NCBI GenBank assembly: GCA_963969365.1 | Contig: OZ017748.1 | Span: 3,407,001 to 3,471,000 of the forward strand | Origin: Asterochloris sp. CNOR1 | Lineage: Eukaryota; Chlorophyta; Trebouxiophyceae; Trebouxiales; Trebouxiaceae | Length of the DNA: 64,000 nucleotides | Direction of reading: 5' to 3' | Shown: in pieces, positions 5,270-63,998 of the stretch | Position numbering within the stretch: the first letter of the stretch is position 1 | Layout of the letters: each line of letters opens with the position of its first letter | Notes under the pieces: generated by a model | Databases searched by the model: none | What the model was told of the DNA's origin: nothing | Seen by the model: the letters and a program-made list of their open reading frames with translations, nothing else | Made by a program: the position numbers and the translations under genes

Positions 5270-8200
5270 ATGAAACTGCCCACATCAGCAGCACTGCTGG
5301 TGGCGGTGCTAGCATTCACTCAATCATTGAAAGCTGATGGTGGGTCCTGCATGGCACTTTCCACACAGCTGACTTGCGGACAACTGATTGTGCCCAGAGG
5401 CAATGAGCCACCTCAGTTTGCTTGAGTGCTGCTGTGCTGGCCTGCAGAATGCAGTGGCCATGGTCGAAAGCCAGAAGGCAGTACTGTTTGCCAGTGTGAC
5501 AATGCCAGGCCTGCCGTGGGAGAGCTGGGCTGGACAGGAGCAGAATGTGATCTGCGTAAGTCCCCAAAAGCAACTGCAGCTGTGTTTCAAGGTCTCCTAC
5601 GCAGCCATCACCCCTGGAGCTGAGGTGCCCAGTTTTGAAGGCTCAGATCAGGGCAGACCAGCAAAGTTGCCCACTGCAGGTGTGCTGGGCGCCTCAGCCA
5701 ACGGCAGTGACATGGCAGATGGGTGCCGCCAGGAGCACTGCGATGCCCTGGAGCCAGAAGGATGGTTCTGCTATCATGTTGTCCTGCCCTGGATGTGAGC
5801 TTTCGGCTGGGGGCCCAGCTAGGAGCAGCCGGGTCATGTGATGTCTCATGTGCTCAGAAAACGCAGCCTCACTGTACGGCAGGCAAAGTCAGCACAGGCC
5901 GCTGCATGCAGCAGGTCCCTGCGACCCCTGGCATGGAGGTCGGCCCTGGGCACTGTCCCCATCACCCCATGCGTGCACGAGTCTGTGCTGCCACCTGCTG
6001 CAGGGGGCCACATAGGTGGAACTACCTAACTATGCAGCTGGCAAGGACCTCCGAGGACCCAGCCGGCGATCCAGACTTGTATGGCATGTTTTATGGAGGG
6101 GCAGCAGCGCAGGTCAGCAGCAGACTGCCACCAGGCACAGCACAGTAGTCTCTGTGCAGCCTGCGGCCTGCCACTTCTAAAAGTCATAGCAGCGCATGTC
6201 TGCCTGGCAAGAGGCAACTATGAGCCCAACATGCACACCTAAACACAGCACTGCGATTGCTTGCGCCCCCATCTCTGCACAGCGTGTGGCCTGCTGCCTG
6301 ATCCCACAGAGCAGCCCATGTTTTAGTGGCTGCCAATGAGGCTGACAAGCCCCTGGCTCCTGCAGGAAGCCCACCCCAGCCGGCAGACGTACAGTTACAG
6401 CTTCAGGGAGACCAGCAGCGCCAGCCGTGGCATTGTTACCAAGCGGGTGGCCAAAACTGACTTTGCATCTGATGACTATGATGGTAGGCCTGCCCAGCTG
6501 TTGTTCCCAGTCACTTGCACCCTCGAGGCTTACTGCCTATAAACTGTGGGATCACTTGTCTCTGCATCCAACCTATGGGTTGCCTGTCTCCCTGTACCGT
6601 GACAGCAATCACAGCGGCTGACGGGTTCCTCTGCTTGCAGGCGTGTACATCTGCGTCAAGGCCTATGGCAGCGCCAACAGCTCCTATGCGGTGCGAGCTA
6701 TCAGCACAATCTGTCCCTCAGACTTTGCCCTAGACGGCACAGAGATTCTGTGCAGCTCCAGGGTGGATTCACCAGAAAGCGAGAAGCACTTTTCAGAGTG
6801 CACGCCTGACGGGCAGTGCGTTTGTCGAGCGCAGTGGGCCAAGCCCCTGCCAGAGGTGTACCACGGTGAGCTGGCCAGGCAGCAGGGGAAGTGGAGTTGC
6901 TCAGCAGCAATCTGCAGCAGGAGGCTGCTTCTTGTTGACAGCGTGTTGGGCAACGGAGAAAGCGGTGTTGCACACTGGAGCTCTCAGGCAGGAGCTTCTG
7001 GTTGACATCATGCATTGCTGAGGGCTGCTGGGCCAGCAAGGCTGCCCATTCAGCAGCTCCCAGGCTATTGCTGAATGTCAACCCCTGCCGGACAGGTGGG
7101 TTTTACCATTTCACAGACCCAGCCATGCTGCTCTGCAGATCTTGGGTTTGAGGACTGCTCAGCGTCTGTGGTCCAGATCCCCGACTCAGACCTGTCCACC
7201 ATCAAGTCCTATGTCCAGGAGCATCAGGTTGTACCCGCCAAGGCGTGGGCCTTCTACGCCTTCAACGTGACAGAGCAGGACTACCAGATCGTGGTCAACC
7301 TGGCTGCTGAGGAAGACTCTCAATGTGAGGGGGGCTGCCTGCCTGTGTGCCGCCCAGGTGTGTAGTGCTGGCATCTGAGCTTACCAGCAAACATCAGCAG
7401 CAGCAAACATGTCTAATGCTTCTGTGTGCTCTGTCAGTGTCCCAGCGTTGAGATTGTCTGACAGCCTTGTGGTGCGCTGCTGGCCTCTCAGCACACTTAC
7501 AGTGTGAGCAGCCGCGTGCAAGACTGGTGGCGTTCTGGTGTGCTGCTGGCAGCTGAGCTGTTGCGCGCTGAGTGCAGGCAAAACCGAGGCATATTTTGAG
7601 CTGTATCTCCAGTATGGGCAGCCACCAGGGTGGCACGTAGACCAGTGGGCCTTCAGGTCAGCCGGCTGCTGCCCTGCTGCAAGGGCCTGCTTTTGCTTGC
7701 TGTCTGTTGCAAGCCAAGCATTGAGTGCCAGAGGAGGCCAAGCTCCTCCCCTGCCTGTGCCTGCTTTATGGTGGCAAGCGCTTGATTCACGAGAATGTCC
7801 TTTTGCCTGCCAGAGCATGCTCAGGCACAGGCTGTGCTGGAACTGCTGGATGTGCAGTGTTGATGCTGCATGCAGTTGACTGATGTGGGTCCGCAGCAGC
7901 TCACAGTCTGGCCAAATGCATGCAGGCCCAGCTGGGATTACATGGCTGATGACGGGGACCTGGAAGTCAAGTTTGACCGCACTTCTGACAGCTGGCAGGC
8001 CGGTAAGCGCAAGTACTGGCCATGTGCAGGGGCTGTGACTGCTGCACTGCAGGCGATTCCTTGCTGGCTGTGGCTGTCCAAAAGGGCCAAGCTGTCTGCT
8101 TTAACTCCAGCATTGCATCCCCCTGGGGGAATCTGACAAGTGTCACCCTGTCTCCTGCCCCGCCTGTGACTGGTGTGCTGGCAAGACCATGACCTTCGGC

Positions 8201-11200
8201 TCTGCATCAGGCCCTGCCTGCTGTGGCGGTTCACACAGACCAAGCTCTTTGGCTGCCACCTTGCCTGCGTCTGGTGACCCACTGTGGCCACTGTGCCTGA
8301 TGCAGGGACCTGGTACGCTGGCATCAATGGTGACGATGCCATGGAGTGCAAGTTCACCCTCTCCATCAACAAGTTCGACTGCCCACTCAACTGCTCAGGC
8401 CGTGGGCGCTGCATACACAACACCAATGGCACGCATACCTGCCTGTGTGATGAGGTGCGGACAGTCTCTGGGGTATCGTGCTTAGTGGTTCCCCTGCTGA
8501 CCTTGAGACAAGGAGCTTGCTTCAGCTGCTCAGGTCATGGACACTGCAAGCTCATCCCATTGGTACCTGCGTGTGTGATGAGGTGCCAGCACTGTTTGTG
8601 TTGTCTGTCGAGGGTTTGTGTTGTCTGTCGAGGGCTTGGTTGGCCCTCGATGCCCCTAGGCAAGGCTGCTTTTGACTCTTTCTGTATGTGGGGGAATGTC
8701 GAAAAGCAGCATGACACCAAAGCTGGCAGAGGCCCTCACGTGAGTGCTGTCTGCTGTGCAGCACTTTCTGGGAGAGGACTGCTCTAGTGAGTCAGCTGGC
8801 CTGCAGTACGGGCGCCCCGTCGTCCGGGAGGAGAGTGCCTTCGAGTGAGCAGCCTATGAGACAGCAGCATTCCTGCAAAGCACCCCGCTGACCTGCCGTG
8901 CAGCCTCTGATGCCTGTGATCATGGGCAGCATATACGCAACCGCCCTCTGTTGCATTCGTTTTGTTTGGTGCCCAGTATTTCCAGAGGAGACCATTGTGT
9001 AGCAGGTGAGGACTCCCTCCCTTCGCCAGACCAACAGATCATGCATCCTAGTACTTTTGCTGAGGCGCCTTTGGCTGCATGGTTCATGGTACTGCACAAT
9101 AGTCGGCCGCTGTGCCCATGCCTCACCGTCCCAGCCTGCTTGCCTGCCATCCAAGGTGCTAGCCTCTCCACCACTTGGACAGAGGTGTGACTGCGCCTCA
9201 CAAGGCAGCAATTGCTGTTTTGTGTCCCCTGATGCTGCCTGGATGCAAGCCCCCATACTGTGCATGCAGAGCTGTGGCAGGGTAGGCCTGACGCTGTCGT
9301 CATGCTGCCGTGCACCCTTTGTTTGGGTTCTGCCCACAGCGAAGGATTGCGGATAGATTTTGGACACACCGCCATGCTGCCCTGCAGGTATGAGTACTTC
9401 CACCTGCCCCGCATCACGGAGGCCCAGATCAAGAATAATGTGGAGCTGGTGCTGGCAGCCTCGTTTTCTAGCTCTGAGGGCTACTCTGAGTGGGTGGCTG
9501 CCCGCCCAGAGCTGTTGCTCATCAAGGTCAGCCTGGCAGGCAGGGGTGGGTCATGTCTGGGGGAAGCTAGTGCTGTGTGCTTGTTGCACATTGCCGACCA
9601 AGTGTAAACTCATGCTGCAGTGTCTTGCTCTGCGGTGGGGTGGCTGTAGTGCTCGACATGGCTGAAGGCTCTTGCCAACTTGTGTTGTGCAGAGCATGCA
9701 GAATGGGGACCACCCTACCAACACCAACTTCACCTTCAAGCAAGCAATGGAGCGGCAGAATGAAGTCTTCCAGATCACTGTGTGCCCCTCTCAGCTCCAG
9801 CATGTAAGCAGCTGCCTGCTTGCTGGCTGCCATGGCAACAACAGCGAGCGTGCATGACACCTGATGCACCTGATTCACTCTGTGTGACGCTGCCATGTCA
9901 GCGCACAAGCTGCCCACATCCCATGCTGAGCAGTGCTGCCATGTGGCCCTCTAGAGCCATCTGCCTCAGCCTGTGTGACACTGCTGTGCAGAGCACAGCT
10001 GCCCCAGCACCAAAGCAACTGTCGTCAGGCTCCCCTTGCATGCAGGCCGACTGGCGGGCAGCAGTGTTCAACCCCATGCGCCTGTACAAGATAGCCTACA
10101 ACCTGACGCTGTCCAAGCAGGCATTCTGCCTGAACGACTGCAGCGGGCATGGCACCTGCAGCGAGGACGGCGAGTGCCTCTGCCACGAGGGGTGGCAGGG
10201 CGGGGACTGCTCTGCCAACCCGGCTGCCACATGCGTCCAGGGGGCGCGGCGACCCACCCACCAGTGAGCCGGCTGCTTGCATGCACAGCCAGGGTGGCCA
10301 GGGCCCCCCTGTGTCATGAGGGGCGACAGGGCAGGGACTGCTCTGGTCAACTTGTGTCCAGCGGGCGCAGCAAGGCGCTCACCATCAGGCCTGTCATCAG
10401 GCTGCTTCCGTTCCTGACGCAGGGAGTCAGCGCCTGCATGCATGGTCAGGCTGTCTGACGCAGGGAGCCAGCGCCTGCATGCATGGTCAGGCTGTCCCTG
10501 GTGCAGGTGTGCAAGCACCTGCCCCTCTTCAGGGCAGCATCCAGGGCATGGTCCGATGGCGCAGGCTGTTCATGCTCCTGCATCCAGGGGTCCTGCCCAC
10601 CGCGCGGGCTGGCAAGCAAGCGAGCGCTGGAGCAGGCCACAGCAGGGCTGAGGGTCTGCTGCTGCCTGCAGGACGGGGTGCTGGCAGCAGTGCGTGTGTG
10701 GCGATGACCCAGCCAGCTGCAAGTTTGCCGATGAGTGTGTAGCCTTCACAACTGAGGACTTTGGAGATAGTGGAGATGCCTGCAGCAATGGGGAGGTGCT
10801 GAAGGTGTGCAGTGAATGTGTTTGGCTCTTGTCAGCAGCCTGGACATCAGGTGAGTGTTGCGCCTGGCTTGTCAGAGTGTGTGTTGCTGCCTGCGCCTTC
10901 TTGCTTGAAGCTGTGCCTGCCATGCAGGGCGCCAAAAGCACGAAGTCGGAGGGAGTCTTTGTGGGCGGCCAGTGTGTTCAGAGTTCAGAGGCCGACAGCC
11001 ACAAGTCGTCCGCAGGGCTGCATTCCCTTTACGTGCTACTGTTGCTGGTGACTGGAGCCCTCATGGGAGTTGGAGGCCATTTTGCATGGCAAACTGGCGC
11101 GGTAACCATGTTACTGGATCGCATCCCATGGCTGTCGTCAAGAAGGTCCAATGCAAACAATCTGTTGTACTCAGAGCTCAGCATGGACACCAATAACACA

Positions 11201-13231: not shown

Positions 13232-16200
13232 ATGCAGCCTCTGACCGGCAGGCCCTGCCGGCAACTTGTTCTACATCTGCCGCTCAGGCAGCAGAAGAAG
13301 CATGGCAGGCAGCCCAGATCTGCAATCCCCGCTCAGTGCCGCATGTGCAGAAGGAAACAGGGCAGATTGAGGCGACAGCTGCATTGCCAGGCCAAGCAAA
13401 ACCCTGATCGGTCTGGCCTGTATGAGGGCCTGGGGTGGGCGCTGGGCGGGCAGCAAGGCAAGCTGCTGCTGCTGCCTGCACATGACCAATGGTGTCCGCA
13501 ATGTCCGCTGCAATTAGCCTGGCACTTTGACGAGCTGGCACCATTGTCCCCCAAGAGAGCTCTTGTCTGTTCATCTGCAGGCAATGAAGCAGCCGCCCGA
13601 GCGGAGCAGGAGCGCCTCCAGCAGCAGCAGCTGGAGGATGCGCTGGACGAGCAGGAGCCCCAAGCAGAGGATGCAGAGCATGCAGAGGGGCGCGACCTAG
13701 ACGACATGTGGGAGGGGCAGGACTATGTGGGCATGGAGGTGGGGAAGGAGGAGGTGGACAGGCTGCTGGAGAAATACAGCGATGCCGAGTGGATCGAGGT
13801 GGACGAGGAGGAAAACAGGCGCATCCCTTTCCATAGGTCAGCCGCCATGGCTTTAGCATACCCATGCCCGCTGGTATGCCTGCTGGTAACCTCCTGGCTG
13901 CATGCGATTTGCTATTGCTACAAGAGTCAGGCGGTGCCCACCAGATGGTTTGAAACTGGTTTTGTCAAGGTGCCAGAGGGTTTGATGTGTCTGCTGTTGG
14001 TAGCCAGAGCAAACAACATGCAGGCACACATGAATGGCGACTGAGAGGCTAAGTTGCTTGTGCCAGGCGCCTGCTGGTTGCAGCTAAGGCGACATAGATG
14101 GGCTTGGATTAGCTTGTGTGCCACAAGGCATCGCAAGAATTTTGAGGAGATTTTGCTTGTGTGCAGGTGCCTGCAAGTTGCAACCAAGGCACATGCAGAC
14201 TTGTGCTGTACAAGGTGCTTGAACATGGCTCGCAGAGTATGCTTTGCTTGTGTGCAGACACCTGCTGGTTGCAGCCCAGACGGGCTGCACTGATGGGGCT
14301 GACAAGGGCTTTGAGAGGAATCTCATTCTGCCTGTGCACAGGCGCCTGCTCACAAGCAAGAAGAAACAAGTCAGCTGTCGCCTGCTCACAGGCAAATGAG
14401 AATCCTCTTGGCTGATCATCTTCTTGCTCACTGTGAGCAGGCACCCACTGGCTACTGATACTTCTTGCTTGTAAGCAGGCGCCAGCTGGCCAAGGCTGGC
14501 CACACAGACGGGGCTGAAAGCCCAGTGTGTGCACACTGACATCATAAGATTTTGGACAGAGCTGCTCTCTGGTGTGCAGGCGCCTGCTGGTTGCAGCCAA
14601 AGCAGGCGACATACAGTTGGCTGAGAAAGTCATTGAGGAGATGGACAACCAGGAGGTGAACTTGAAGGACTACCAAATTCCACCAATGCCCCTGGGTCCC
14701 CGTGCAGTGCACATGCTGATGACCGCATATGTTCGCGGGGGGAACGTGACAGGGGCGCTGGACGTGGCTGGCAGGATGCAGAACGATAGAGGTGGGGTAC
14801 CACATCACCAGTGGTGTAATTTACCTGACTGACTGCCATCAGCAGAAGCTTCAGAACCGTCCATTACGAGCTGGGTTGCTGCTTGAGCAAGACCTCTCAG
14901 CCTGCACAGGGCGAGCGCTGGAGGCAGGAGACAAGATAATGTGTCGTTGAGCTGAGAGTCTGCATTGCATGCTCGTCTGCTGGCAGCAATGATCTTGAAG
15001 TGAAGCGCCCAGCCAAGTTCTGGTGCGCCCTGAACCTGGCTTAGGACACCTGGGAACACTGCAGATGACCGACATGATGCCAAGCCTGCGGGAAGGGATG
15101 ATGCAGAAGCATGTACCCGGCCATACACGTCAGTGCCTAGGCAGGCACTGTGCATGGCCAGAGCAGCAGTGATGATTTGATTAGGAGAGCTTCAGGCTGC
15201 TCAAGCTCCCGCCCTGCGTGCATCTGTGGCCCCATAGACCATGCTGCAGCTGTCCAGGCACCATGCATCCCCTACCCAAGGACCTCTCCTTTCACTATCT
15301 GGGGCGTGCTGCGCTGCAGGCATTCCACTGATGCAGGAGAGCTTCAGTCTGCTCATCTGGGGGTTCATCCACCAGGCAGAGCCTGACTTTGAGGCAGCCG
15401 AGGAGGTCCTGGAGTCCATGATGCAGACCGAGCTGCGCTGGGACTGCCGAGAGGCCTGGGTGAGCGCTCCACCTGCAATTTCAAAACAGTGCATCATGAC
15501 GCTGGCATGCTCAAGCCAAAGCGTTGTGCCACTTGCATGCTGTACTGGACTTCGTGCCACACATCAAAGGCACTGGGATTGCCGACAGGTCTGGGTGAAC
15601 ACACTGTTGGGGACTGCTCTTGTCAACATGAGTCCCTTGAAGTTGACAGCATGCTGCCTGCATCCTGCACAGCTTCTGTCCAACAAGTCAGATGGCTCTC
15701 TAAAGGGTTCCGCAGCAAGGTTCTGGCTCATAAGCAGTAGCAGTGCTCTGCCTGCCTCTGTTGGAGATACAGCTGCTTGCTCCCTGTCCCCAAGTGGAAC
15801 ACTGCAGTGACTGCTGCTGCCAGGGGACCTGGCCCACGTGGCCGTCCTGCAGAGTGCCCTGATGTGTGCCGCCTCCTGCCTCTCGTCCCCATTTATTGTG
15901 GACTGCTGTGCCTGCCAGGTGACGTTGACCAAGGAGCTGCTGCGTGCCCACCGCTATGACCAGGCCCGTCACTGGCTGCTGAGCCGCGAGGAGGATTGGG
16001 CGCCCTCCCCTGAGCTGTACTGGGACTTCCTGCACTTCCTGGGGGCTGCGCCAGGTTCTATCATGCTGGACGAGGCAACTGAGGAGAAGTTGACCCCTGA
16101 GGTGAAGGTGGCTCCTGCCAGTGTCTCTCGCAAGCATATTCGTGCTGCAGAGGTTTGCCAAGCTGGCTTTTCGAGGTGCCCTTCCACCCAGCTGCCCGTC

Positions 16201-19200: not shown

Positions 19201-22200
19201 GGTGGCCAGACAGCAGGGCCTGTCGCAGTCCTGCTGACATGTGCTGCATGTGGAGGCCTGGAGACAGACGGTGGGTGGGCTGATTGGATGAGGCCTCTGC
19301 GTCAAGACCACGACAGTGTGCAGGCTGCCAACCTTTGCTATCCCAGATCGCTGCCCAGTTGTGCCTGCTACACTGCTGCTCTGTGCGTACAGAGCTGGAC
19401 GCCGCCCGGAGTCCCACCCTGGTGCTTGTCACATCTGCGCACTCTTGCCAGCGAACCTGCTCGCTCTGCGCATGCAGAGCTGGATGCTGTCCAGGACAGG
19501 TCCCTGGTGCTGGTCCCACTGGACGACCTCCCTCACGCCCTTGGCGGCGATCCAGTTGCGATTGGCCGGCAGCGGCATGTGGTCTATGCAGAGCACGCTG
19601 ACCCTGACAAGGCCGGCACCATTGTCCCCATCAGCAAGATGTCCCCAGAGCAGTACAAGGCTGAGCTGAGGGCGCGCAACCTCCCTACTGAAGGCGCCAG
19701 GAATGACCTCAAGAAGCGCGTGCAGGTGCTCAGCTTCTGCTGCTTGAAAAGGGCTGCATTGGTCATGCTTGAGCACTGCTGAGCTGAGCGTTGCGCTCAA
19801 GGCAGGCACACGTGCCCACAGAAGGACACCAGGCACCACCTCAAAAAGCGTGACAGGTGGACCATCTGGGTGTGCAGCCTCTATGGCTTGGTTGGCATCT
19901 TCGCCATTGCTGTGTGTGGTGCCAGATGCCTCTGGCTGGGCGGTCAGCACCCCTCATTTGACGCCTGGTTGCATGGCTGCTGCCCTGTCCGTGGGCGGCC
20001 CTGCGGCCTGAGGTTCAGCGTCCCTTGCACAAGCCAGGCTGCACAACTGCTGCTATTTGCATGTGATGCTGCCTGCCAGTGGAGCCTGACTTCCGGCTGC
20101 ACGCAGGCTTGCTGCCTGTCAAGCAGCAGTCTGCCCATCCTTACTGCCTCCGCGGCTTGCCTGCAGGCTGCCCGTGCTGCAGACCCGGTCGACATCAATG
20201 AGCAGCTGCGCCGGCGGGAGGTCCTTGGACAGAAGCGGGCGGCCACCCAGATCACCAAAGAGCTGGAAGTTGGTAGCAACAAGCAGCAGAAGAAGGTAAC
20301 AGCTGGCGCCGAATTGGTGGCATGATTCATCAACTGGCTTACGTTGCTACTCAGGCTGTTCCATCATAGGTGACTGCCTTGCCTGCAGCCTGCCTGCCTG
20401 GCCCCTTGCAGATCTATATGTGTGGTCATGCTTATGCTGACAATAGCACACTGGGACGGCAAGCCCTGTGACTTGTCAGGCTGTGCATGCTGAAGGCAGC
20501 CAAGACAGGTGACCCATGCCTGCTCAGCGCCCCTCCTTAAGCCCAGCAGCAGGGAGGTGCTCATGCACATGGCTGCTGTGGCTTGTCTCCACTCCCCTCA
20601 ATGTGCTGTGCTGTCCCTTTAGACTGAGAAGAAGGACAAGTCTGGCAAGGTCGCCAGCCGCACAACAATCCTGGAGCAGCAGTGGCAGGGGGGAGCGCCT
20701 GTGGAGGAGCGTGTGCTGGCCGTGAAGGATGATGTTGACGATGATGACCTTGAGCTGAGCGGCTCAGGTGAGATGAGGCGCAGGATCTGCTGAACTTGCG
20801 AGGGAGCTTCAGTGCCTGGGGCAGCGGTCTGTGCAGTCAAGCATTGCCCAGCTGGCGGCTCGCTGGGTCTGAAGGAGGCAGTTTCTTCTATAGACGACGG
20901 CAGAGAGAAATCCTGGGGAGCTGCCTCTGCGCTGCAGTCTGCTGTGGGGAAATGCTAGCGACAGGCTCTCCAGATACATGCAGTGCTCCCATGTGCAGAT
21001 GATGACGCTAATGAGGAGGAGGATGCTGTGGAGATCGATGAAGATGAGGAGGCGCGGCCCAAGAAGGGCAGCGACGATGAGGATGATGTTGGGGACAGCA
21101 CCCTGGGGGTCGTAGAGGACCCAGAGGATTCTCCAGTGAGCAGGGCTTTGTGTAGGGCTGGCCCTGCAGTAGCCAGGCCACACCCTTAGGGAGACTGCTG
21201 TGTTGCATCTCGAGACTGCTGCATGCCGCTGTGAGCAGCACCTTAGGCCTGGGGATATGCTTCATCAGGTGTGGGTCTGCTTCCTGCGCAGTCATGGCTG
21301 CGTGCGCAGCTGTGAGACGTGTGGTAGGCCTGGGCACCTGCTCTGCTGGGTGCAGGGCTGTTCAGCAGCTGACCTGCTAGTCAACATGGTCGTGCTCAAG
21401 TCCTAGTCCTCGTTGGGGCACATGCTTCTACTTTAAAGGTATCCTGAGAATTTTCGACCTACCAGCGCGCACACCACACACGTGGGCTGCAGAGGCTTGT
21501 GTGGGGAGCTTGGGGAACTGCAGGGCAGCCTTCAGTGGGACCTTGTGGCTGTGTGCAGCTGAGAGGACAGCTGTAGCTGGTGCCACTTGTGTTCTGCTCA
21601 GACAGAGGTCTTGCAGCTGCCTGCCACTTATACCCTTTTGCAAGCGCATCTGGCTTGTCCAGCCAAGCCTGTGAGCTGCAACACCTCGCCCGCTGGCGCA
21701 TTCTTGCTCAGCCTGCAGCTGGCTACGCAGAAGCACAGTGGTCAAGATGTTGAGCTCCTTGTGCCTGAGGAGGCCTCTGAGTGCAGCACTGAGCTGACAA
21801 CAAAGTGCCTCTGCCTGCAGACGGCACAGCAGGGCCATAGCTATGGAGTCCCTTGTGACTCAGGAGCATATCCGCACTGTCTTTCCCCTGGCAGATCAGA
21901 CTGGTTCTGCCTGCAGGCGACACGGGAGGGCAGCGACGATGAAATTGATGAGTCCCCTGTGACTGAGGAGGACTTTGAAACAGAGCCCCGGCGCTCGCTG
22001 CGGCCATGGGAGAGCAAGCCCACGCCGCCAGCTGCAGACGATGTGGAGGATATGCAGCATGACCTCAAAGCCGACATGGCCTTCAGCATCTGCTTCTATG
22101 CGCTCAAACTGAGGCATCAGCCCAGTCCGGCCGATGTCCAGGAGTTTGGCAGGGTGAGCAGCCCATTGGTGGCCTTGTTGCTGCTTCTGCTTGCGCTCAC

Positions 22201-24351: not shown

Positions 24352-27300
24352 ATGAACTTCAGGCCTCCAATGGGAGGCTTTGGCCAGCCTGCCATGGGTG
24401 GCATGATGGGGCCAGGTACCTCTAGCTGCATCTCATATCTGTACTAGCCGCAGAGGATGACCATGACGCCCCCTCTTGCAGGCATGGGCCAGCCTATGAT
24501 GATGGGAGGGCCTCGGCCTGGCTACAATTCTCCCATGCCGCTTGGTGAGGCCAGAGCTGGCTACCACTTCTCAGTAGACCATCTGCTGCATGCCGTGCTT
24601 ACTTCACACCCCCAGCACACAAGCCTGAGTGTACGGCGGCCCCCCTGCAGGTCCCATTGCAAAGAGCACAACCCTCTACGTGGGCAAGATCGCTCCCACA
24701 ATCCCAGAGGACGTGATTCGCAGCCTTCTGGAAGCCTGCGGCACTGTCAAGTCCTGGAAGCCAGTGCTGAATGAGGATGGCAGCCCCAAGGGCTTTGGCT
24801 TCTGCGAATACCAGTCCCCCGAGGCGGTCACGCGTGCACTGAGGCTTTTAAACAACCTCAAAGTGGATGGGCAGGAGCTGCTGCTCAAATGCACCTCGGC
24901 CACTGAGCGGTACATCCAGCAGCACCAGGTAAGGCTCTGCTGTGTTTCAAGCCGGCAGCTTGTTTTGCTTCCCGCAGCAGAAAGTCTCAACGCTGGGCAA
25001 ACGGCTGATGTCTTGCTCACTGTTGGGCCTACTGATGCGCGAGTGCAACTTCGGCAGTGAGGTCAAGGCCAGCTCTTGCCGCTCCTGTTGCTGCTCTTGT
25101 CATTCCTGTTGGGAGCAGCGAATGTGGCAACAGGGCAGGCCTGCCCACGCCAGAAGCTTGGGCTATCCACGCACTCTACTCGGCTGCCGGCTTTGTATAA
25201 GTCAATCGGAGTCTGCGTGAAGGTGCATGCCTTGGTGGTCTACAGCTAGCTAGGCTGTGCCTGTCTGCTGCCCCTCAGGCCGACCAGCACCCTGGAGGCG
25301 CCCAGCAGGTGCCCAGCCTCCTGCTCAGCTTGCTGCACAGGTGCACTAAGCAGAATTTGGCAGCAGCTGGCAGTCGACAGGTTGCCTCATGGTGCCACGC
25401 AAGCCCACAACCTGTGCTCAGCAGGCACTGTGTCAGCAGTTCGACGGCTGTGGTTTGCCTGAGCTGCCCATAGCTGGCGCTCAGCTGATTTCCTCAGCCT
25501 GCTCTCAGCTTGCACTTGCACCCTGCCCCCAAGCAGGCCCATAAGCAGCGCAAGAGCACCCAGGAGGCGCATGCACATCAATGAGTGTTGGCAGTCTACA
25601 TTTCGGTTTTGCTGCCACGCAGGTTTGCCACCAACATTGTGAGGACTCACAGCAGGGACCCTGACACTGCACCTGCCCATACCTGACGAGATACACCTGT
25701 CAGTCAATCTGCGCTCCTCTGCAGGCCCACAAGCAGCGCGACAGCGCTCAGCAGGCCACAGCGAATGGCAAGCCTACAGACCCAGAGGGTGAGGAGGACG
25801 ACGACAAGCTGGGCGCAATCATGGCCATTGTAAGTGCCCGTGCCGCCACGCAGCAGCCCCTCGCGGCGGCCCCCTCAGCCCAGCAGCAGGCACAGGATTT
25901 TCTAGCGGAGAGCCTGCTGCCGCCCCCCCCCAAGAAGGGCGGCAGCTCCGCAGCCGCCCCTGCTGGGGCAGAGGCAGACAGGCGGGACCGAGACCGCGGG
26001 GGAGAGAAGGAAGGGCGTGACAGGGATGGACGGCGCTCTAGGAGCAGCCGGGACCCTAGCAGGGACCCTGCACGGCAGAAGGAGCTGGAGGATGAGATGC
26101 GGCGCAAGCAGGCCAAGCGTGAGGCTGAGAAGAAAGCTGCCGCCGAGCAGCACGAGTACGACAAAAAGGTGCTGGAGTGGGAGCGCCATGAGAGGTAGGC
26201 CAAACCCTGTAGCGCAAGTCTTGCATGGCCTGAGTCAGTCTGCATAAGGATGCCACAAAGCAGTGCCTTTGCACGCGCAGTTGTTGTCAGCTCAGGCTGA
26301 GTCGCTGGCTGGCTGGCTGCTGGCCGCCGGTGCAAGGCCCTCACAAGACTAATTCTGTCCTGTAGGCTGGCGCTGCGAGTGCCGGCGGCTGCAGCCAGCC
26401 GGCCTCTTGTCTGATGCTGTGTGTGGTGTATGTGCTGCTGCAGTTGACAGTGTGCTCTGCTGAAGCTGCTCAAGTCGCAGGGGGCTTGCTCGCCATGTTG
26501 TGCCTCTGGGGCTGTGCAGGGCCCGCCTGACGGCAGCGGCGGCCTGAGGGGCTGCCAAGCACACACCACTGGTTGCTTGCACATGGGTCTGCGGTGAGCG
26601 GTGTTGTGGGTCCTGCTACTGGAGAGCTGCAGCATGCGTCTTGCTGCCACCAGCCCTGCCTGTCGCACAGCTGCCTTGCCTGGAAGCACTGATGCAGGCT
26701 GCCCCAGCCGCACCCACTGGCGGGGCAGCCACTCTGCGTTGCACCGCACCTGTGGGCTTCCAGCCGTGCCTTGGCTGGGGGCCTGCAACTGTCCATGTGC
26801 CCAAAGGCAGCAGGGCCTGAGCAGTGGCTGGACATGGCGAAGAGGCTGTTCCAGGTCCGTCCCTATCTGCTGGGGCGACCCAGTCACGGCCGCCCTGATG
26901 CTCACCCTTGCTGTGCAGCTCATAGAGGACGCTGCTGCTTGATCACTCCAGCCTGGCTCCCCATGGTGCAGCTGCGGGGTTCAAGACAAGCATTGCCACC
27001 CGGCAGTGCAGCTCAATGGTGCAGACTGCTGCTTTGCCACCCTGCAGTGCGGTTGCAGACGCAGACTGCTGCCTTGCAGCACACACTGCAGGAATGTCCA
27101 AGAGCAACTCGCCTCAGCTTGTGCCTCCAGCGAGAGCCATCTGCTACTGCCAGACCCAGCCTGCCTTGCCCTTCACCCAGCCTGCCTGCCTGACTGCTGG
27201 CAGGCAGACAGCTGCCTCTGCAGCCATCTCCCCTCTGCTGACAACACCCCCGCACGATCCTGTTGTGTAGGCAGCGCCTTAAGGACGTTGAGGCTGCCCA

Positions 27301-30300
27301 GGAGGCTCTGCGCAAGGGCGAGAAGGACCGTGCTCGTGCAGTGCGGGCGGACAACGACACAGGCGACGAGGATGAGAGCATGGAGCCCTGGCTGCGCAAG
27401 CTCTTTGCTGCCACGTGAGCTCAGTGTTGAACTGCTGATGGGTTAGAGTCCCTTGTTCCAGCCCCAGCCAAGTCCAACATCTTCTCTTGTTCCAGCTTGA
27501 TCTGAATGAGTCTGTGCCAGCATGCGCAAACACAAAGGCCCCAAATCTGCCCAGAGGCGCTCTCTTACCCTTTGGCTGAACACAACATGGTGCTTTTGTT
27601 GCAGCATGCACAGTGCAAGAGGGGAAAGGCTGCAGATTTGTCAAGTTCAGCTTCGAGTCCCCCGTCTCTCTGTGCAGCAAAGAACGTACTGGAACTGCAG
27701 CATTTGCGGGGGTGGGATGTGCGCTGTGCCCAGACTCTTGGTGTGAGCTCGCCATTCTCCTTCGAAACAGGCTCAGCAAGATGCGGCAGCGCTAGACGGG
27801 GACTGAGGCAGCTTTGAGTACCTCTTCAATCCATGTGCAGCAGTTCTGCTGAGACTGGCAAGGAGGATGCAAGAATCCCAGCCCTTGACATGACTTTGTC
27901 CTTGTCTCCTGCAGCAAGCGTGGCGAGACACGGCGGCGCAAGAGGGGCGAGGAGGCGGCCGAGGAGAAGGGCGATGCTGAGCGCCTGGAGCACCTGCGCC
28001 GCAAGCAGCAGCGTCGCATGGAGAAGGCAGAGGCTGCTGCAGCAGGTAGGTTGCCTTGCAAGGCGCTACTCTGGTTGGTCAAGCTGCCAGCTGTGCAAGG
28101 GGGGATCCGAGCAACACGATCGGAGGAAGGCAGGAGAAGCTGCCGCTGGTGGGCTGCCTGGCATTGTGGTGGGTTGTGCATCAGGTGGTGGCTGCCTGCA
28201 CCACGGATGGCTGGGGCCCTGCAGGGGGCTGGCTGGTGCTGGCTGGTATGTAAGTGAGCTGTGAGGAAGTTCATCTGGCTATCTCTGCTGGCTACATCAG
28301 CACTGCTGGGATAGGGCAGGGGCCGATGTAGCAGGTGGCTGCCTTGCAAGGCCCTGTTTCAATTGACCAGGCTGCTGGCTATGCAGAGGGGATCTGGCCA
28401 TGGGTGGAGAAGGCAGGATCTGCTGCTGCAGTGGGCTGCTTTTGCTAGATTTCTGCTGTGGACTTCAACGGCCAGCTGGCTGGGCCACCTGGTGGACAAG
28501 AGAAAGAGGCCGCTTCATCACGTACAACGCCTGGCTTGGAGTAGGTGGCGATCATGCTGCATTGATTGCGTTGCTGGCTGCTCCAACATGGAGGGCTGAG
28601 GCCCAGGATGTGCGCTGGTCGGCATCCCAGTCGCGTACGATGAACCTCAACTGGTGAGTCAGCTCGTGGGACCAGTGCCACCTGCGGACGGCAGCAGGCC
28701 GCTGGCCAGCAGCATACTTATTTAGTATCAAGCTGGCTTGGCAGACTGCTCGCTGCACCAGCTGCATGAGGGCAGCAGGGGCTGCGGCAGCGAATGGGCT
28801 GGCTGGCACTGTATGGCCTTGTAGTGTGATCCTCTTCAATTTCGCATGACTGCACTTGTAAGTAAATTGGCTCCATCTGCGCTCGCATGACGAAGGCTGA
28901 GGTTGCTGCAGCAGGGGGGCCTGTTGGGCATGCTGCTGGTTGGGGTGCTTTTGTGCGGTAACGGCGGCTGCAAAAGCTGGAGTGGCTGGCAATTTGAAGT
29001 GTTGAACTCAAGCCAACTTGGGCATTGTGGTGGGCGGGCTGGCAGCCTCCATGCAGTGTCTGTTGCACCAGGCTGCCCTACAGCAACTCTCTTGTGTTGC
29101 CTAGGAATTCTGAGCAAGTGGCTCAGCCTGCACAACAATCACACTGACTTGCCTGCCCTGCAGCCCGCAGCAAGTCTGAGCCGCAGCCCAACGGCGATGC
29201 CATTGGGGCAGAGAGCAGCCAGCAGGCATCCCGGCCCCCCTCCCGGTCCCCAGCTGCTCACACCGGCGGTGCCAAGATCGCACCTGATGATGCCATCATG
29301 CAGGCCATGCTGGCGCAGGTGAGCTGCCGCCTCTGTGTTAATTGATAAGATGCTGTCTGGCCCTGTGCAAGGCAATACATACTCCTGGCCTCCCTCTCAT
29401 AACTTTCAAAGAGCTGACAAGCACTTAGGCTCTTGTCTTGATAGGCTTGGCAGAGACCCAGGTCCATGCAGTTGGCTGGATGCTGGGCTGCACAAAAATG
29501 ATATCGCAGGCGGCGGGCATGGCAGAAGCACAGTTGTGGTTGCTTGCTGCATGTTGTGGCTGCCTGCTGGGCCGACTAGGTTTTCCTGGTGCAGGCACGG
29601 GAAGCCCCCACCGCAACCTCGCGCCTGCCTGCCTCACCACACAATGCAGCCGCCTCCGCGGGCCCTCCCGGGGCTGCTGAGCCGAGGCCACGCAGTGGGG
29701 GAGTGGCTGCAGCTTTTGGCGAAGATGATGAGGAAGAGCCCAAGCGCCGGCTCATCCCTCTGCAGTACACAGACGAGGAGCAGAAAGCAGCGGCTGCGGC
29801 AGCTGCGCAGCCAGCGGCTGCCCAGGAGGCTGCGGGGCCCGATGGGGGTGCAAGGGCCCAACAGGCCCAGATATCGCAGCTGAAGCAGTCGCTGCCGCGC
29901 AGTAAGGAGGCTGTGTTTGCGGCAACTATCAAGTGGGACGCCTATGCAGAGGCTCAGCCCAAGCTGGGGGAGAAGGTGGGCATGGTGCTGAATCATCAAG
30001 CCACCACTTGACCACCCAAGATGCACTTCCATCATTGCATCAGAGGTGGTGTGCTGCTAAGCCCCTTGCCGTCAAATTCATCACTACCAGATCTAGTCCT
30101 GCAGCATGTGAGTGCGAGTGCATGGCCTGTAACTTCACCAGGTCACTCCATGTTCATGCGCACCTGCCCAACCTGCAGGTGGGCAAGTGGGTGGGCGGCC
30201 AGATCGAGAAGCTGATGGGACAGGAGGAGGGCAGCCTGCGCGACTTTGTGCTTGAGTGCCTGGGGAAGCGCACCTCCCCAGAAGCACTGCTGGGAGAACT

Positions 30301-41808: not shown

Positions 41809-41883
41809 TGCAGAGCAGATCAGTTCAATGATGACTAGATACGAATACAATGCCTCATGCATGCATGTACACTAGTAAAACAC

Positions 41884-43632: not shown

Positions 43633-43660
43633 GGCAGTCAGATGCCCCAACGAAGTATAG

Positions 43661-49826: not shown

Positions 49827-52800
49827 ATGCCAGGCTTCTTTGATGCCCAGAACAAGCAACAGCTGGCCTTGAACATCCTGCTGATGGCCTCTTACCTGGG
49901 GCTCAACAGCTGCCTGAATTTGATGAACAAGTGAGCCGCCTCCTGCCCTTGCCTTGTGAGGCCTGCCTGCTGCTCAAGCCTCCAGTATGTGCCCTGCAGG
50001 TGGGCCCTGGGCATCTATGGCTTCAAGTTCCCTCTGCTGCTGACTTCATGCCACATGGGGTTCAGCTTTGTGGCCCTGCTGCCCTTTATGCTGCGGGAGC
50101 CCTTCCTAAGCAAGCACAAAGACACCCTGCAAAAGCAGTGGAAGGGCCTGGTGGCCATAGGCCTGTACATGGTAAGTTCTGCCCTGACAGAGGCCAGGCA
50201 CCAGTCAGGGCAGAAGTTGCTCACCCACACCACCGCTCACCCTCGCTGTCCAGCCACCCTGGACAGATAATCACCACTGGACAGATAAACACTGTGTCCG
50301 CGCGCTGCCTGCAGGCCCTCAACATTGCCCTGAACAACTTATCCCTGGTTCTCATCACGCTGTCGCTGAATCAAGTCATCAGGTGCGGGCTTGGGGTTGT
50401 CGCTGCCTGGCCACCTCAGTGCCAGCCAGCCAGGCTCCACAGAAGCTGCCGCTGGCTTGCCATGGGCTACCTGCCAGCAGCACACACAGCAGCTGACATC
50501 ATCCCCCTTAGCCATTTGTGCACACCCTCCGTCGACTGGGCACCTCGCACACCTGCTGACTCTGCAGCATTTTGAGAGGCTGCTGCAGCACGCTGTATCC
50601 TGGAAAAGTTGGTTCACCCAAGGTGTCGCCCGCTGCACCCAGGCTTGCATTGCTGCACTGTAACACGTGCCAACAGTCGCAGGCCCGATGCCAGGCTTGG
50701 ATGGCTGCAAATTACTTTGCTCTAGCCAAGCAAGCCATGGTTTGCAAAGCGACAGCACTGAGGGGCTCCCAGCCTCTGCTAGCAGGCTTGCATTGCACAT
50801 GACTCCCCTGCCCTGCCCCCAGGTCCGCTGCCCCTGTGTGCGACCCATCAGGTCTGGAGCGCTGCACCAGACCAGGGCCATTGCAGCTGCTGCCCCCTGC
50901 CTGCAAGGCCAGCAAGCAAGAGCTCTCGGTCTCTACAGCCAGACTTACCTGGGTGCATGGCATGATGCACCCACGTGGCCCTTCCTGCAAATTGGCCATC
51001 TCTGATTGCAAGGCCGGCTCCGCTGGCCTGGATTGCTGCTCTGAACCACAGCCACTGCAGCTTGCACGCCCTGCCTGCAGGTCTTGTCTTCCCCACGCAA
51101 TGGCTCATCATGCCTGCAATGCTGTCACTGCAGCTGCTGAGCCCTGCCTGCAGGTCAGCAATTCCCGTGTGCACAGCCATCCTGGCAGTGTTCATTGAGA
51201 AGGCCACCCCCACCCGGGAGGAGCTGACAGCCCTGATTGTGCTTACCCTGGGCGTCATGGTGGCAGTGTGGGAGGGGTCAGCCACGGGCAGCATCACAGG
51301 CATCATGCTGTGCATTGGAGCCACCCTCTCCAATGCAGCCATGATGTCCACCTCTGGCAAGGTATCGCATGCTGCTGTGTGGGCCGCATGCACTGCTGTG
51401 CTGTGCATGGCGGCCACCCTTTCCAACGCAGCTATGATGTCACCTCCGGCAAGGTTTGAAGTGCTGTTGGCGCCAAGGTCTCTGATTTTATTGCAATGCT
51501 GTGCATGGTGGCCACCATCTTCAATCCAGCCATGATGCCAACCTTCAGCAAATGCTGTGGTTTGATGGCTGCATGCACATCAGGATGGTGCATGGCGGCC
51601 AAATGTCCCGACGCTGCCATGATGGGCCACCTGTGGCAAAATGCCAGCAAAGTGGCGCTGCAGGGGCATGCCAGCGCAGGGCTGTGGTTGCCAAGCTTTC
51701 CGCTGGAATTCTGCTCTGCACTTGCATCCCAGCAGGATCTGCCCGCTGCGCTGTCCACCTCAGGCGAGGCGCAAGTATACAGTGCAGTGTAGTGGTCTGC
51801 AGCTTGCTGGAGACAGCATCCATGCATCCTCACCACCTGCTGTCTGCCCAGCCCTGGTGCTCCCTGCAGGGGCCCAGCCTGCATCCCGGGAGCAGCCAGC
51901 GCTGCTTCAGGAGTCTACCAAGAGCAGTCTTTTCCAGCAAACACACAGTGACCCCTTCCATAGTGGCGAGCATAGCCATCAGCATGACGCTGCCAACCCT
52001 GCTTTGCCACTGCAGGTCCTGTCTGAGAAGCTGGACGTGCTGCGCCTGGCCTTCTACACTGCGCCTGTCTCCTGCAGCGTGCTGCTGCCTGTCTTCTTTC
52101 TGCGTGAGGTGGGTGCTCAAATGCCCACTGTGCACTCCCAGCAGGCAGCTCTGCCCTGCCTCTCACAGAGGACCTCTTGTCATGGGGCAGTGTTGCCCTC
52201 CGGCAAGACGCTGCACCTCTGAGCAACGCTGTCCCGCCGCTCGGCTTTCTCCCTGTGCCTGCCTCTGAAGAAGGGATTCATCTACTGCCAAGGCTATGGC
52301 ATTGCCCCTTGTTGGAGGTATTGAGCCATGCTCTTTGGCCAGTCAGTGTCTTGCTTTGGGGCCAGCATGCTGTTGTGCACTGTCAAGGTCTATCTTGGCT
52401 TGCCGCTGATCACTCAGCAGCCTTCTGAGCCCCAGTGTTTTGCAGGAAGGGTTCCCAGCTGCACAGCTTGCTCCTTCTGAGCTCTGCCTGCCTGCGCTTC
52501 ACAACATGTGGCAAGACTCTGCAGCTGTCCATGGCTGATGGGATGTGCCTGTCCTGCAGAGGCAGCAGTTCTCAGAGTACATGGTGGCAAACTCCAGCGG
52601 CGTGGCTGGCATCCTGTTTGTCAGCAGCGGCGTCGCCTTGTCCTACAACGTGGTGCACTCCCTCATGATTCAGAAGACTTCGGCTGTCACCACCACTGTG
52701 CTTGGTGACTTGGGGCATGGGGTCTGCAGATCTTGCAGGACATGTTCATCATCTGAACATTTGTAGCAGACAGAAGCCTGAGTGCCTTGGGCACTGGCAT

Positions 52801-60037: not shown

Positions 60038-60142
60038 CATGTTTCAAGCCTTCAGCACACTGCCATTTCAATATTTCATTCTGCATTGTTCATTCTGTTG
60101 TCCGTTCAGTCAGCTCGCTGGAGCAAGTACTCCACTGTGAAG

Positions 60143-61528: not shown

Positions 61529-61640
61529 GAAGCATGGAGTCAATCGATTGCTGAGCTTCGTTTTACATTCTCTCATTTGACCTAGGACATCTTGCACCCA
61601 GCACGCCGTGCCCTCTGTGCTGATCTGCTCGTCCAGCGAC
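61529..61640. promoter_or_regulatory. Compact divergent promoter, membrin / DEP1
   Basis: 112 bp between the membrin ATG and the DEP1 ATG at 61641. If the DEP1 ATG at 61608 is used, only 79 bp remain. No element recognised. Confidence 0.35.
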
Positions 61641-63998
61641 ATGAGCTCCGTGGAAGAGGCCAAGCAGCTCATCTGCGAAGTGTGCGAGAATTTCTACAGA
61701 GCAGGATGGGTCTCCGGAACTGGGGGTGGCATGAGCATCAAAGTAGGGGATGACATTGTCATGGCACCATCTGGTGTGCAGAAGGAGCGCATGGTGCCTG
61801 AGGATATGTTTGTCCTAGATGCCAAAGGCGAAGTGCAGTCCAGCCCCCGGGCTAGGCCAGCACCTTACAAGCCTCCCAAGCTCAGCGAGTGCTCCCCACT
61901 CTTCATGGCGGTGGGTGACCAGTTTTCATGTGGCATGCAGAATCTTGTGGGCTGCATGCTCTAAGACTCACTGCCCGCAGGCTTATGAGCTGAGGGAAGC
62001 TGGGGCAGTGCTGCACAGCCACTCTATGAATGCTGTGCTTGCCACCTTGCTGGACCCCACAGCCAAGGAGTTCAGGGTCACCAACCTGGAGATGGTCAAG
62101 GTGGGACCAGACTTGGCCAGGGTAGTTGCCAAATTGCATGCACCGGAGATAGGCCACAGCATGCTGCTTGCCTCAGGCATTCAGCGACCTCTGCCCATTG
62201 CTGGAATGCATCTAGCCCAGCTGCTTTGCAGGGCGGCTGCCTCTACTGGAGGTCAGTGGTTGCTGGCTGGCCATGCCGTAAGTCACAAACCAGCAGGGGT
62301 GCTGTTACTGCAGGGCATTGCCGGCGTTGGCTACTTTGACTCCTGCGTGGTCCCCATCATCGAGAACACAGCCAGGGAGTGCGAGCTCACCGACAGGCTG
62401 CGGCAGGCCATCAAGGAGTATCCTGAGGCGCATGCAGTGCTGGTCAGGAGGCATGGAGTGTATGTGTGGGGGAGCAGCTGGATACAGGTCAGCTGCTTTG
62501 GGCTGGCTCCAGCTTTGTTTGCAGGCTGGGAGCCTATCTGAAGGCTGGCATGCCTGCTGCCAAGGCCTGCAAACAGCCAGATCCAGGTCAGCTTTGTTTC
62601 AGTTGTTGCTGCTCTGCAGGCTTTCTGCGCATGCGGCTGGATTCTAATTTGCTGCTAGAGTAGTCGATGCCTGCTGGGGAATTCAGATCATGGGGACGAT
62701 TACTCATTCTCAAAGCCTGGCAGCTGCTTCCTGGTCAGCCGTCAGGCTGACACCTGCCCTGCCTGCTTGTGAAGTGCAAGGCACAGAGTAGCTGGCCGTG
62801 AAAGAATCGCTGCCAGGGCACCTCTGGACGCCCGATGTGTACAGCAGAGGCTGTGTGGCGCCTGCTGCTTGTCCTCAGCGAGCGCTGTGCTGCTGTCTGG
62901 CGCTGTGGGTCAGGCCTGCGAATGACTGCAAAGCTGGCTGTGCACCCACCTTTGAAAAGCTAGGTGATTCTGCATACTCAAGCACCGTCTGACACGCTGG
63001 TTGTTCGTGGCCGGCAGGCAAAGACTCAGGCAGAGTGCTACGATTACCTGTTCGATGCTGCTATCCGCATGCGCCAGTTGGGGTATGATGCCTCGAAGCC
63101 GCCGACGCTGAAGAGGGGCGCTGCGCAGATCAATGGGCATGACAGCCATGTCCACGCTGCACCCAGTGAGAACCTCCTGTCAGGATGCCGATTCCATGAA
63201 AATGTGTTGAGATGTGCACGAGGCAACTTTGCGCACCTGACCTGCATTTGTCGCCCAGCAGCGTGGCTGGTCTGCAATGGGCTAGCCTCCTTTGTTGTAC
63301 CGGGAGCACAGCTGCCACTCAGCTTGCCAGAGATGCCTGGCAGCAAGCCCTTGTCCAGCTTGCAGACGTGGACACTGACAACCCCTGCCTGCTTGCATGG
63401 CTGATGACTGCAGCCCTGCACCATGCCTGCATGGCAATGGGCTCACAAGCAGGCTTTGACGCATCTGGTCAGCTGGTGTGCAGGCAATGGGCCTGCAGTC
63501 AAGAAGCAGAAGACTGGGGTGGCAGCCCACCCTGTTGCAGTGGTCTTGGACATTGAAGGCACAGTGGCGCCGATTTCCTTTGTGAAGGAAACCATGTACA
63601 GCTATGCAGCTAGCCATCTCAAGGCTCACCTGGAAAGTACCTTTGATTCTGAACAGACACAGGTGGGCAGGGTCTTCATGCTTTGCTTGAGTACAGAGTT
63701 TGAGCACATTGGCCAAGGTTGCCCAGCAGTTTGAAACTTCTTTTGCCTTGCAGGGGGACATCAAGCTTATGAGAGAACTGGTGGGTTGCATGTGCCATCA
63801 CTATTCACAACATCAGCCAGTCATGCTGCAACACACACCTGACATATCCTGCAGGATGAAAAGGACAAGGCAGCAGGCAAAATGGCTGCCAGCATTCCGC
63901 AGCACGCCGGAAAGGCTCAGGTGATCAAGGCTGTCATCAGTAGCGTCCAGGCACAGATGGCAGAGGATAGGAAGACAACAGCCCTCAAAAGCCTCCAG
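61641..63998 (+). CDS. DEP1: MtnB-MtnC fusion (methionine salvage), 5' part
   Basis: Exons in phase: 61641(or 61608)-61910, 61981-62100, 62314-62487, 63018-63165, 63484-63662, 63754-63780, 63855-63998; the window ends on the next donor GT, so the gene is cut. The N-terminal domain is methylthioribulose-1-phosphate dehydratase (MtnB, class II aldolase fold): GWVSGTGGGMSIKVGDDI, APSGVQKERMVPEDMF, metal ligands in VLHSHSMNAV, and LVRRHGVYVWG with AKTQAECYDYLFDAA. A basic linker (KKQK) leads to the enolase-phosphatase MtnC, a HAD enzyme: AVVLDIEGTVAPISFVKETM holds the Asp-x-Glu nucleophile. The fusion is the plant type and does two to three steps of the Yang cycle from 5'-methylthioadenosine. The last third (rest of the HAD domain) lies beyond the window. 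Confidence 0.95.

Follow-up and report, generated by a model that had tools for sequence, protein, structure and literature searches.

Approximately one in ten of the splice junctions examined in the genome of Asterochloris sp. CNOR1 has a worn copy in the neighboring intron. These copies, here called echoes, probably arose as second copies in local direct duplications of ~50 to 200 bp, spread about evenly over introns and exon edges, and have since decayed. They look like the leftovers of ordinary local duplication, and not of a process aimed at splice sites. The pattern was initially noted in a 64,000-nucleotide stretch of contig OZ017748.1 (hereafter the window), for which a sequence-only reading proposed that exon-edge copies carrying splice sites recur in unrelated genes, that they center on junctions as no random repeat should, and that a genome-wide process, possibly one that creates decoy splice sites, could explain them.

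Worn copies of exon edges are present in adjacent introns

The analysis covers 264 kb, comprising the window plus 200 kb, from three contigs. A gene finder self-trained on this DNA yielded 339 introns between confident exons; all gene models are predictions. In the junction test, the 60-mer around a splice junction is searched for in its own adjacent intron. Matches at p ≤ 0.01 were obtained in 66 of 640 tests, compared with 9 of 640 when the intron was inverted, and the pattern itself is confirmed. Within the window alone the count is 19 of 144, where ~1.4 would be expected, and outside it 47 of 496 (inverted, 9 of 496). All three sampled contigs are positive (25/268, 20/155 and 21/217). At z > 4, there were 49 direct and three inverted matches among the 640 tests. 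The proposal had also named dinucleotide shuffling as a control, and the echo rate lies above it: the true intron ranks first of 50 for 40 of 319 donors and 34 of 321 acceptors, where 2% is expected, and inverted introns rank first for 10 of 319 and 10 of 321.

Such a signal might be suspected of arising from base composition, from splice motifs that many sites share or from faulty gene models, given that CTGCAG-like words abound in the genome and that the self-trained gene finder fuses adjacent genes. However, the signal survives comparison with introns from elsewhere, inverted introns and dinucleotide shuffles, and it is equally strong among exons scoring at least 20 (15 of 112 donors and 17 of 108 acceptors; inverted, 1 and 2). 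An excess of direct pairs is also present in a scan made without gene models, wherein pairs scoring at least 26 comprise 173 direct pairs within 800 bp, eight inverted pairs and, as a distant control, five direct pairs 15 kb apart. We therefore give an artefact next to no credence. Twenty-five of the 173 near pairs were removed on the grounds that their extension collapsed to a spacing below 12 bp, and repeats with periods below 40 bp were considered in the first scan only. Tandem Repeats Finder reported no array with a period above 41 in the window, indicating that the echoes are too decayed for that program.

A strong echo of its own edge is carried by 48 of the 322 tested introns (264 kb). 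The median length of these introns is 453.5 bp (n = 48), compared with 295.5 bp for the others (n = 274). Greater length is predicted by insertion, but long introns also give more room for a match.

Echoes in the window

Most of the loci first listed in the window were recovered by the junction test (Table 1). The echoes in the EGF gene and in RBM25 were confirmed, as were those in PTAC3 at acceptor 14580 and on both sides of exons 15320-15459 and 19478-19725. The transporter exon had been described as echoed on both sides; its donor side is strongly positive and its acceptor side is positive but weaker. The donor-side echo is also present in a paralogue on another contig (C4) and so predates a gene duplication. 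For the KLHDC4-like gene, the evidence is a weak match (z = 3.0, p = 0.01) at acceptor 56611 on the minus strand. Among window junctions at p ≤ 0.03 there is none from the DEP1-like gene, and an echo there is not supported.

Table 1. Exon-edge echoes at loci in the window. Gene models are predicted; z values are relative to 99 stretches of introns taken from other contigs.
Feature	Positions	Strand	Junction and score	Copies, distances (bp) and remarks
EGF gene, start of intron with copy of the end of exon 8306-8454	8455..8616	+	donor 8455, z = 7.7	copied donor near 8583, 128 bp away; identity of the exon part 0.82 across 61 columns; also pair 8387-8490, distance 135
EGF gene, start of intron with copy of the end of exon 10046-10263	10264..10470	+	donor 10264, z = 5.7	copied junction near 10385, distance 121; second, weaker copy near 10463, distance 199
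'PTAC3' intron, five copies of 3′ junction (exon 14580-14791)	13837..14579	+	acceptor 14580, z = 9.9	near 14479, 14256, 14169, 14064, 13989; distances 101, 324, 411, 516, 591
'PTAC3' exon 15320-15459, acceptor-side copy	15130..15230	+	z = 4.4	near 15168, distance 152; copied AG lies beyond extended alignment
'PTAC3' exon 15320-15459, donor-side copy	15541..15610	+	z = 4.9	donor near 15595, distance 135; GT kept
'PTAC3' exon 19478-19725, acceptor-side copy	19295..19437	+	z = 7.6	acceptor near 19394, distance 84; AG kept; pair at distance 86 as well
'PTAC3' exon 19478-19725, donor-side copy	19790..19915	+	z = 4.9	donor near 19857, distance 131; GT kept
'RBM25' intron, copy of 3′ junction (exon 25725-26194)	25270..25575	+	acceptor 25725, z = 7.6	near 25537, distance 188, AG kept; weaker second copy near 25283, distance 442
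'RBM25', weak copy of 3′ junction (exon 27915-28045)	27740..27815	+	acceptor 27915, z = 4.3	near 27768, distance ~147-149; AG lost
'RBM25' intron, five copies of 5′ junction	28046..28930	+	donor 28046, z = 10.6	near 28152, 28335, 28432, 28796, 28914; distances 106, 289, 386, 750, 868
Transporter exon 51154-51361, acceptor-side copy	50879..50915	+	z = 3.7, p = 0.02	0.86 identical over 37 bp, distance 247
Transporter intron start, three donor-side copies (exon 51154-51361)	51362..51686	+	z = 9.8	~93 bp apart; distances 93, 191, 278; array 51287-51686
Minus-strand gene, copy of donor junction	2720..2760	-	donor 2826, z = 6.7	donor near 2741, distance 85; GT kept

The echoes are under no coding constraint

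The 49 strong cases lie at distances of 29 to 418 bp (median 129) and 46 of them are 65 to 85% identical. The alignment crosses the junction in 46 cases; in three, the extended alignment does not include it. The GT or AG is kept at the copied junction in 34 of the 49, and several echoes score level with the real site on a trained splice model. These features would suit alternative splice sites or alternative exon ends that are maintained, yet we consider maintenance very unlikely. Spacing is a multiple of three in only 13 cases (13, 18 and 18 modulo 3; n = 49), and differences between exon and echo occur at every codon position (152/761, 176/755 and 215/776, or 0.20, 0.23 and 0.28). Thus, neither the frame nor the codon-position bias expected of maintained or tandem exons was found among the strong echoes, and the echo is under no coding constraint. 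Whole-exon copies are not in excess either: when an exon edge is compared with the intron at the exon's other end, only 7 of 478 far-edge tests match, where 4.8 are expected, and whole-exon duplication was rejected. The copy sits in the intron that touches the copied edge (66 of 640 touching edges versus 7 of 478 far edges).

A further explanation is intron birth, in which the introns themselves would derive from tandemly duplicated exon pieces. It is known from other genomes, including a potato gene in which a tandem duplication over an intron-exon boundary gave a new intron (PMC4974935). Such births predict that the intron end resembles the upstream exon end and that the intron start resembles the downstream exon start. 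However, only 5 of 319 and 4 of 319 pairs exceed the 99th percentile of permuted pairs, where 3.2 are expected for each. This explanation is rejected for recognizable ages; very old births would show no trace, and overall we rate it very unlikely. Dispersed intron families were also rejected. In a whole-genome search of six echo regions, five match their own locus only and one matches a paralogous gene, which is the sole exception, and the distant control gave five pairs compared with 173 near ones.

Duplication need not prefer junctions

The sequence-only reading was wrong to assume that local repeats of random origin should not center on splice junctions. Windows placed in the middle of introns match at p ≤ 0.01 in 19 of 222 tests, similar to the junction rate (Fisher p = 0.51), although the geometry is unequal in that junctions are searched on one side and mid-intron windows on two. 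At z > 5 the counts are 36 of 640 for junctions and 10 of 222 for mid-intron windows, and 23 of 222 mid-intron windows rank first in the dinucleotide-shuffle test. An equal rate away from junctions is what the sequence-only reading had itself named as refuting its idea, and for mid-intron windows that is the outcome. Mid-exon windows show a lower rate (7 of 272), and this is predicted by selection on coding sequence.

Could the junction nonetheless be the template, for example at breaks or R-loops arising during transcription, so that short, junction-centered copies are produced? Many alignments consist of the junction, 30 to 60 bp of exon and a short intron piece, far shorter than the spacing. 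Junction pairs exceed intron-internal pairs by 31 to 16 (a ratio of 1.9), a count that omits seven exon-to-junction pairs and becomes 38 to 16 with them. At the copied GT, 48 of 53 bases are identical, compared with 0.77 to 0.82 at positions +3 to +6 and in the exon alongside. Against this stand the similar mid-intron recurrence, the choice of junctions as the place for the test windows, and the decay of the intron side in both copies.

The analytic expectation for the junction-to-internal ratio, with no correction for detection, is only 0.7 to 1.1. Because this is unlike the observed 1.9, we made simulations with decay, in which duplication is uniform, exons are conserved, introns decay and junctions are not preferred. 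The simulated ratio rises from 1.56 (t = 0.2) to 3.5 (t = 0.25) when indels are small; with larger indels it is 2.1 at t = 0.2, and matched lengths are then also similar to those observed. The agreement with the observed ratio rests on the simulated decay. Taken together, these results make junction-directed copying very unlikely. Replication slippage and break repair, the processes originally suggested, stay candidates, but nothing marks the junction as their template.

Possible head-to-tail duplication or capture of nearby DNA

Local direct duplication, the explanation we prefer, would proceed as follows. The duplicated stretch would span a junction. Splicing would go on at the outer copy, which is the upstream one for a donor and the downstream one for an acceptor, leaving a spare exon edge and splice site inside the intron and the protein unaffected. 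Since the spare copy would be spliced out, a junction-crossing event should be tolerated, whereas a duplication wholly within an exon would alter the protein. The intron copy would then decay while the exon is held by selection, so that junction-crossing copies should be recognizable for longer than intron-internal ones. Some sites would be recopied to form arrays of three or more. Multiple copies are present at 19 of the 49 strong echoes; two arrays, at the transporter donor (position 51362) and at position 68895 of contig C1 (75 and 150 bp), are plainly tandem. By hand check, the pooled spacings of the 19 sites are not clearly multiples of a single period.

Several repair steps could underlie the duplications: staggered breaks whose ends were filled in and joined, slippage during replication, or the capture of nearby DNA as breaks were repaired. 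The two arrays agree in length with head-to-tail duplication, but among pairs of at least 0.75 identity, 14 of 17 match over less than 0.8 of their spacing, with a median of 0.39. Small indels do not reconcile these values with strict head-to-tail duplication, for which the simulated ratio of matched length to spacing has a 10th percentile of 0.94 (t = 0.1) or 0.63 (t = 0.2). A possible cause is larger indels, with a mean of 12 bp, as they give simulated medians of 0.4 to 0.7, which fit.

Nearby capture, in which synthesis-dependent strand annealing during break repair sets a copy at a distance, would fit too. A study of primates (PMC2671141) describes repair duplications reaching 619 bp and containing splice sites. 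Repair-mediated capture would insert a copy away from its donor, in either orientation and with microhomology at the ends. The separation fits many pairs here, and the orientation of these old copies is nearly all direct. This last property, along with the plainly tandem arrays and a spacing of ~100 bp compared with the primate average of 1.2 kb, argues against capture. It is a lesser possibility, though one that deserves to be taken seriously.

Age of the echoes and possible consequences for introns

Young-looking long-period copies occur at 3 of 53 loci. The expected share is 23%, obtained by hand integration over simulated detection power under the small-indel model and for junction and intron events, whereas a few of the 53 lie in exons or between genes. 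Repeat-induced mutation was rejected as a cause of this scarcity, there being no C-to-T excess; changes from exon to echo at the first two codon positions comprise 157 transitions and 171 transversions.

We tentatively suggest, as a speculation that may well be wrong, that introns were lengthened by repeated edge copying in an older burst of local duplication that has since largely died down. A considerable part of intron sequence would then be decayed local array, leaving old putative decoy splice sites across the genome, and the order in which these decayed would record intron growth.

A puzzling pattern becomes a measurable process, and local duplication becomes a plausible source of intron length and spare splice sites in this genome (48 of 322 introns). 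Because exons are conserved, repeats that touch them stay detectable for longer, and a random process looks splice-junction-centered. Exon conservation can therefore mimic junction-centered duplication, a trap that is general. Splice-site choice is also at issue, since splicing seems to keep to the upstream donor and the downstream acceptor despite neighboring rivals that were once nearly identical.

Comparison with known systems

We found no description of junction echoes in the open-licence literature. Tandem duplications have reportedly been studied in rice insertions and, in plants, at adjacent nicks.

Several known systems are related. In the potato RNA-dependent RNA polymerase gene, a local direct duplication likewise includes an intron end and the start of the next exon (PMC4974935), but there it created a new intron, whereas the copies described here lie inside existing introns and lack the signature of intron birth. 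Introners also place repeated DNA in the introns of many genes (PMC9860276); however, they are families common to unrelated introns, and each echo resembles only its own exon edge. Break-end fill-in with end joining yields small direct tandem duplications and is a general source of them (PMC8355091), although those events are from human and mouse cells and the present copies are too decayed to retain a break signature.

The capture of proximal DNA in vertebrates (PMC2671141) similarly gives short local duplications with splice sites and partial exons, and its intensity is described as having fallen over time. That set consists of insertions in transposable elements, with copies within 50 bp excluded as tandem, and its copies lie ~1.2 kb apart, whereas the echoes lie ~100 bp from their source and are nearly all direct.

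Exon-edge copies recur beside introns across the sampled genome

The 264-kb sample, drawn from a 56.4-Mb assembly of 21 contigs, comprises the window (C3:3407001-3471000), 40 kb flanking it, and 80 kb each from contigs C1 and C2. Its GC content is ~58 to 59%; this value and the assembly size are in keeping with those published for Asterochloris glomerata (56 Mb and 56 to 62% GC; PMC6652019). A hidden-Markov gene finder, self-trained on the 264 kb, yielded 45 gene models and 675 exons, all of them predicted, with a sharp acceptor signal (TGCAG) and a GTGAG-like donor. The predicted acceptor is almost invariably TGCAG, and GC replaces GT at ~7% of predicted donors, a share to which prediction errors may contribute. 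Some adjacent genes are merged, for example EGF and “PTAC3”, and exon edges are consistent with the reading frame wherever inspected. An exon filter (coding log-odds of at least 8) retained 384 exons and 339 introns. Pfam matches were obtained for five of six submitted proteins (EGF, RRM, EamA-type transporter, Kelch, and class II aldolase plus hydrolase). The Pfam search with the 125-residue “PTAC3” fragment gave no match, and thus this name derives solely from the sequence-only reading.

That reading had noted echoes, copies of exon edges with their splice sites, next to many introns in unrelated genes, and had suggested a genome-wide process. To score them, junction 60-mers (40 exon and 20 intron nucleotides) were aligned to the remainder of their own adjacent intron, with the same intron reverse-complemented and 99 equal-length pieces of introns from other contigs serving as controls. 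The echoes are real and exceed chance. Own introns reached p ≤ 0.01 for 35 of 319 donors and 31 of 321 acceptors, versus 4 and 5 for inverted introns. Against dinucleotide-shuffled introns, the check suggested with the proposal, 40/319 donors and 34/321 acceptors ranked first of 50, and inverted introns did so for 10 donors and 10 acceptors (6.4 expected in each case). Rates are similar among contigs (25/268, 20/155, and 21/217 tests) and persist outside the window (47/496 positive versus 9 inverted) and among the best-scoring exons (score of at least 20; 32/220 versus 3 inverted). Strong echoes (z > 4 relative to the other-contig pieces) number 49 of 640 direct versus 3 inverted, and are spread over 24 of 44 testable gene models.

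No preference for splice junctions is required

The further claim that echoes centre on splice junctions fails. Mid-intron 60-mers matched the remainder of the same intron at a comparable rate (19/222, inverted 0; Fisher p = 0.51 versus junctions, although the geometry differs in that the search from a mid-intron window runs in both directions). The first 60 bases of introns matched in 20/222 cases and the last 60 in 12/222. Mid-exon windows matched less often (7/272; p = 3e-5 versus junctions), and exon edges matched the intron at the exon's opposite end in 7/478 cases. The echo pattern is not about junctions.

An annotation-free scan for repeats within 800 bp recovered 173 direct and 8 inverted pairs at scores of at least 26, with 5 direct pairs at a 15-kb control distance; at scores of at least 22, the counts were 317, 60, and 35. 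The direct excess lies mostly below ~300 bp. After 25 pairs were dropped, 148 were usable, and 67 of these had identity of at least 0.65 and spacing of 40 to 450 bp: 28 intron-junction, 16 intron-intron, 7 exon-junction, 5 exon-exon, 5 outside genes, 2 exon-intron, 1 junction-junction, and 3 mixed.

Of the two copies made by a duplication across a junction, one would stay exonic and be held unchanged by selection. When uniform duplication was simulated on real exon-intron triples, the detected junction:internal ratio rose from 1.1 at low divergence to 1.56 (t = 0.2) and 3.5 (t = 0.25), t being the simulated divergence; larger indels gave 2.1 at t = 0.2. The observed ratio is 31:16, or 1.9, with identities that match (medians 0.69 and 0.68). 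Because uniform duplication reaches this value, the observed junction share, as modeled, requires no preference for junctions. An intron-birth signature, sought by comparing exon ends with intron ends and exon starts with intron starts, exceeded permuted pairs in only 5/319 and 4/319 cases, respectively (3.2 expected).

Echoes are probable products of local direct duplication

Echo spacing ranges from 29 to 418 bp (median 129; 10th-90th percentile 69-289), and spacings of the 49 strong echoes modulo 3 number 13, 18, and 18. Exon and echo differ at codon positions 1, 2, and 3 by 0.20, 0.23, and 0.28, respectively; if silent sites of the exon change too, this slight increase at the third position is expected. 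GT is retained in 22/28 donor echoes and AG in 12/21 acceptor echoes, and identity at the copied GT (48/53 bases) is somewhat above that of its flanks in a raw comparison. At the stricter threshold used for counting copies, at least two occur at 19/49 sites and none at 2/49. Clear arrays include those in the first two rows of the table; spacing at other multi-copy sites is irregular.

Echo arrays and associated features
Feature	Location	Observation
Transporter donor (exon 51154-51361)	window 51362	copies at 93, 191, and 278 bp
Clear array	C1:68895	copies at 75 and 150 bp
Donor locus L012	C1:68721-69042	three 75-bp copies; first and third 92% identical, neighbours ~81%
“PTAC3” intron	window 14341-14483	72% match to own reverse complement across 143 bp
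Intron after exon 10046-10263	window 10414-10496	young 41-bp tandem duplication (97%)
Transporter paralogues	window 51303-51665; C4:1861432-1861779 (L025)	whole intron alignable between the two genes

Among pairs with identity of at least 0.75, the matched length is below 0.8 of the spacing in 14/17. This is contrary to tandem copying with small indels only. Allowing the indels to be larger makes tandem copying compatible, and capture of DNA from close by is compatible as well. Since both fit, we restrict our claim to local direct duplication as the source of echoes, with tandem copying or nearby capture as candidate steps.

The identities at L012 suggest that a two-unit block was duplicated in a second event. 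The “PTAC3” feature is a large imperfect palindrome within an echo array and the sole inverted copy among the named cases. The intron with the young tandem duplication also holds an old echo.

Most long-period copies appear old

The paralogous transporter introns align over their full length (832/1074 columns identical, 195 gap columns), which is unusual given 7/60 differences in the last 60 exon bases. Because the first echo lies at matching positions in both paralogues, 92 and 80 bp away from the genuine donor, it predates that gene duplication, which we count as independent support on age. Its exon-derived part is better kept in the window gene (56/65 aligned, 10 gap columns) than on C4 (45/55, 30 gap columns), and this may reflect later re-copying in the window gene.

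Among 53 long-period loci, identity is at least 0.86 in 3 and between 0.65 and 0.70 in 27. Constant birth predicts ~23% young copies, a hand estimate from simulated detection that depends on simulated decay, versus the 3/53 observed (binomial p = 7e-4). Copy loss was rejected as the cause, because it would thin old copies only. Under the simulated decay, a past burst or a declining duplication rate can explain the scarcity.

The pattern is real, genome-wide, and instructive, and its cause is ordinary and of a known kind; its interest resides in the abundance and age structure of the echoes. Repair-mediated duplications in primates are likewise reported as declining in intensity (PMC2671141).
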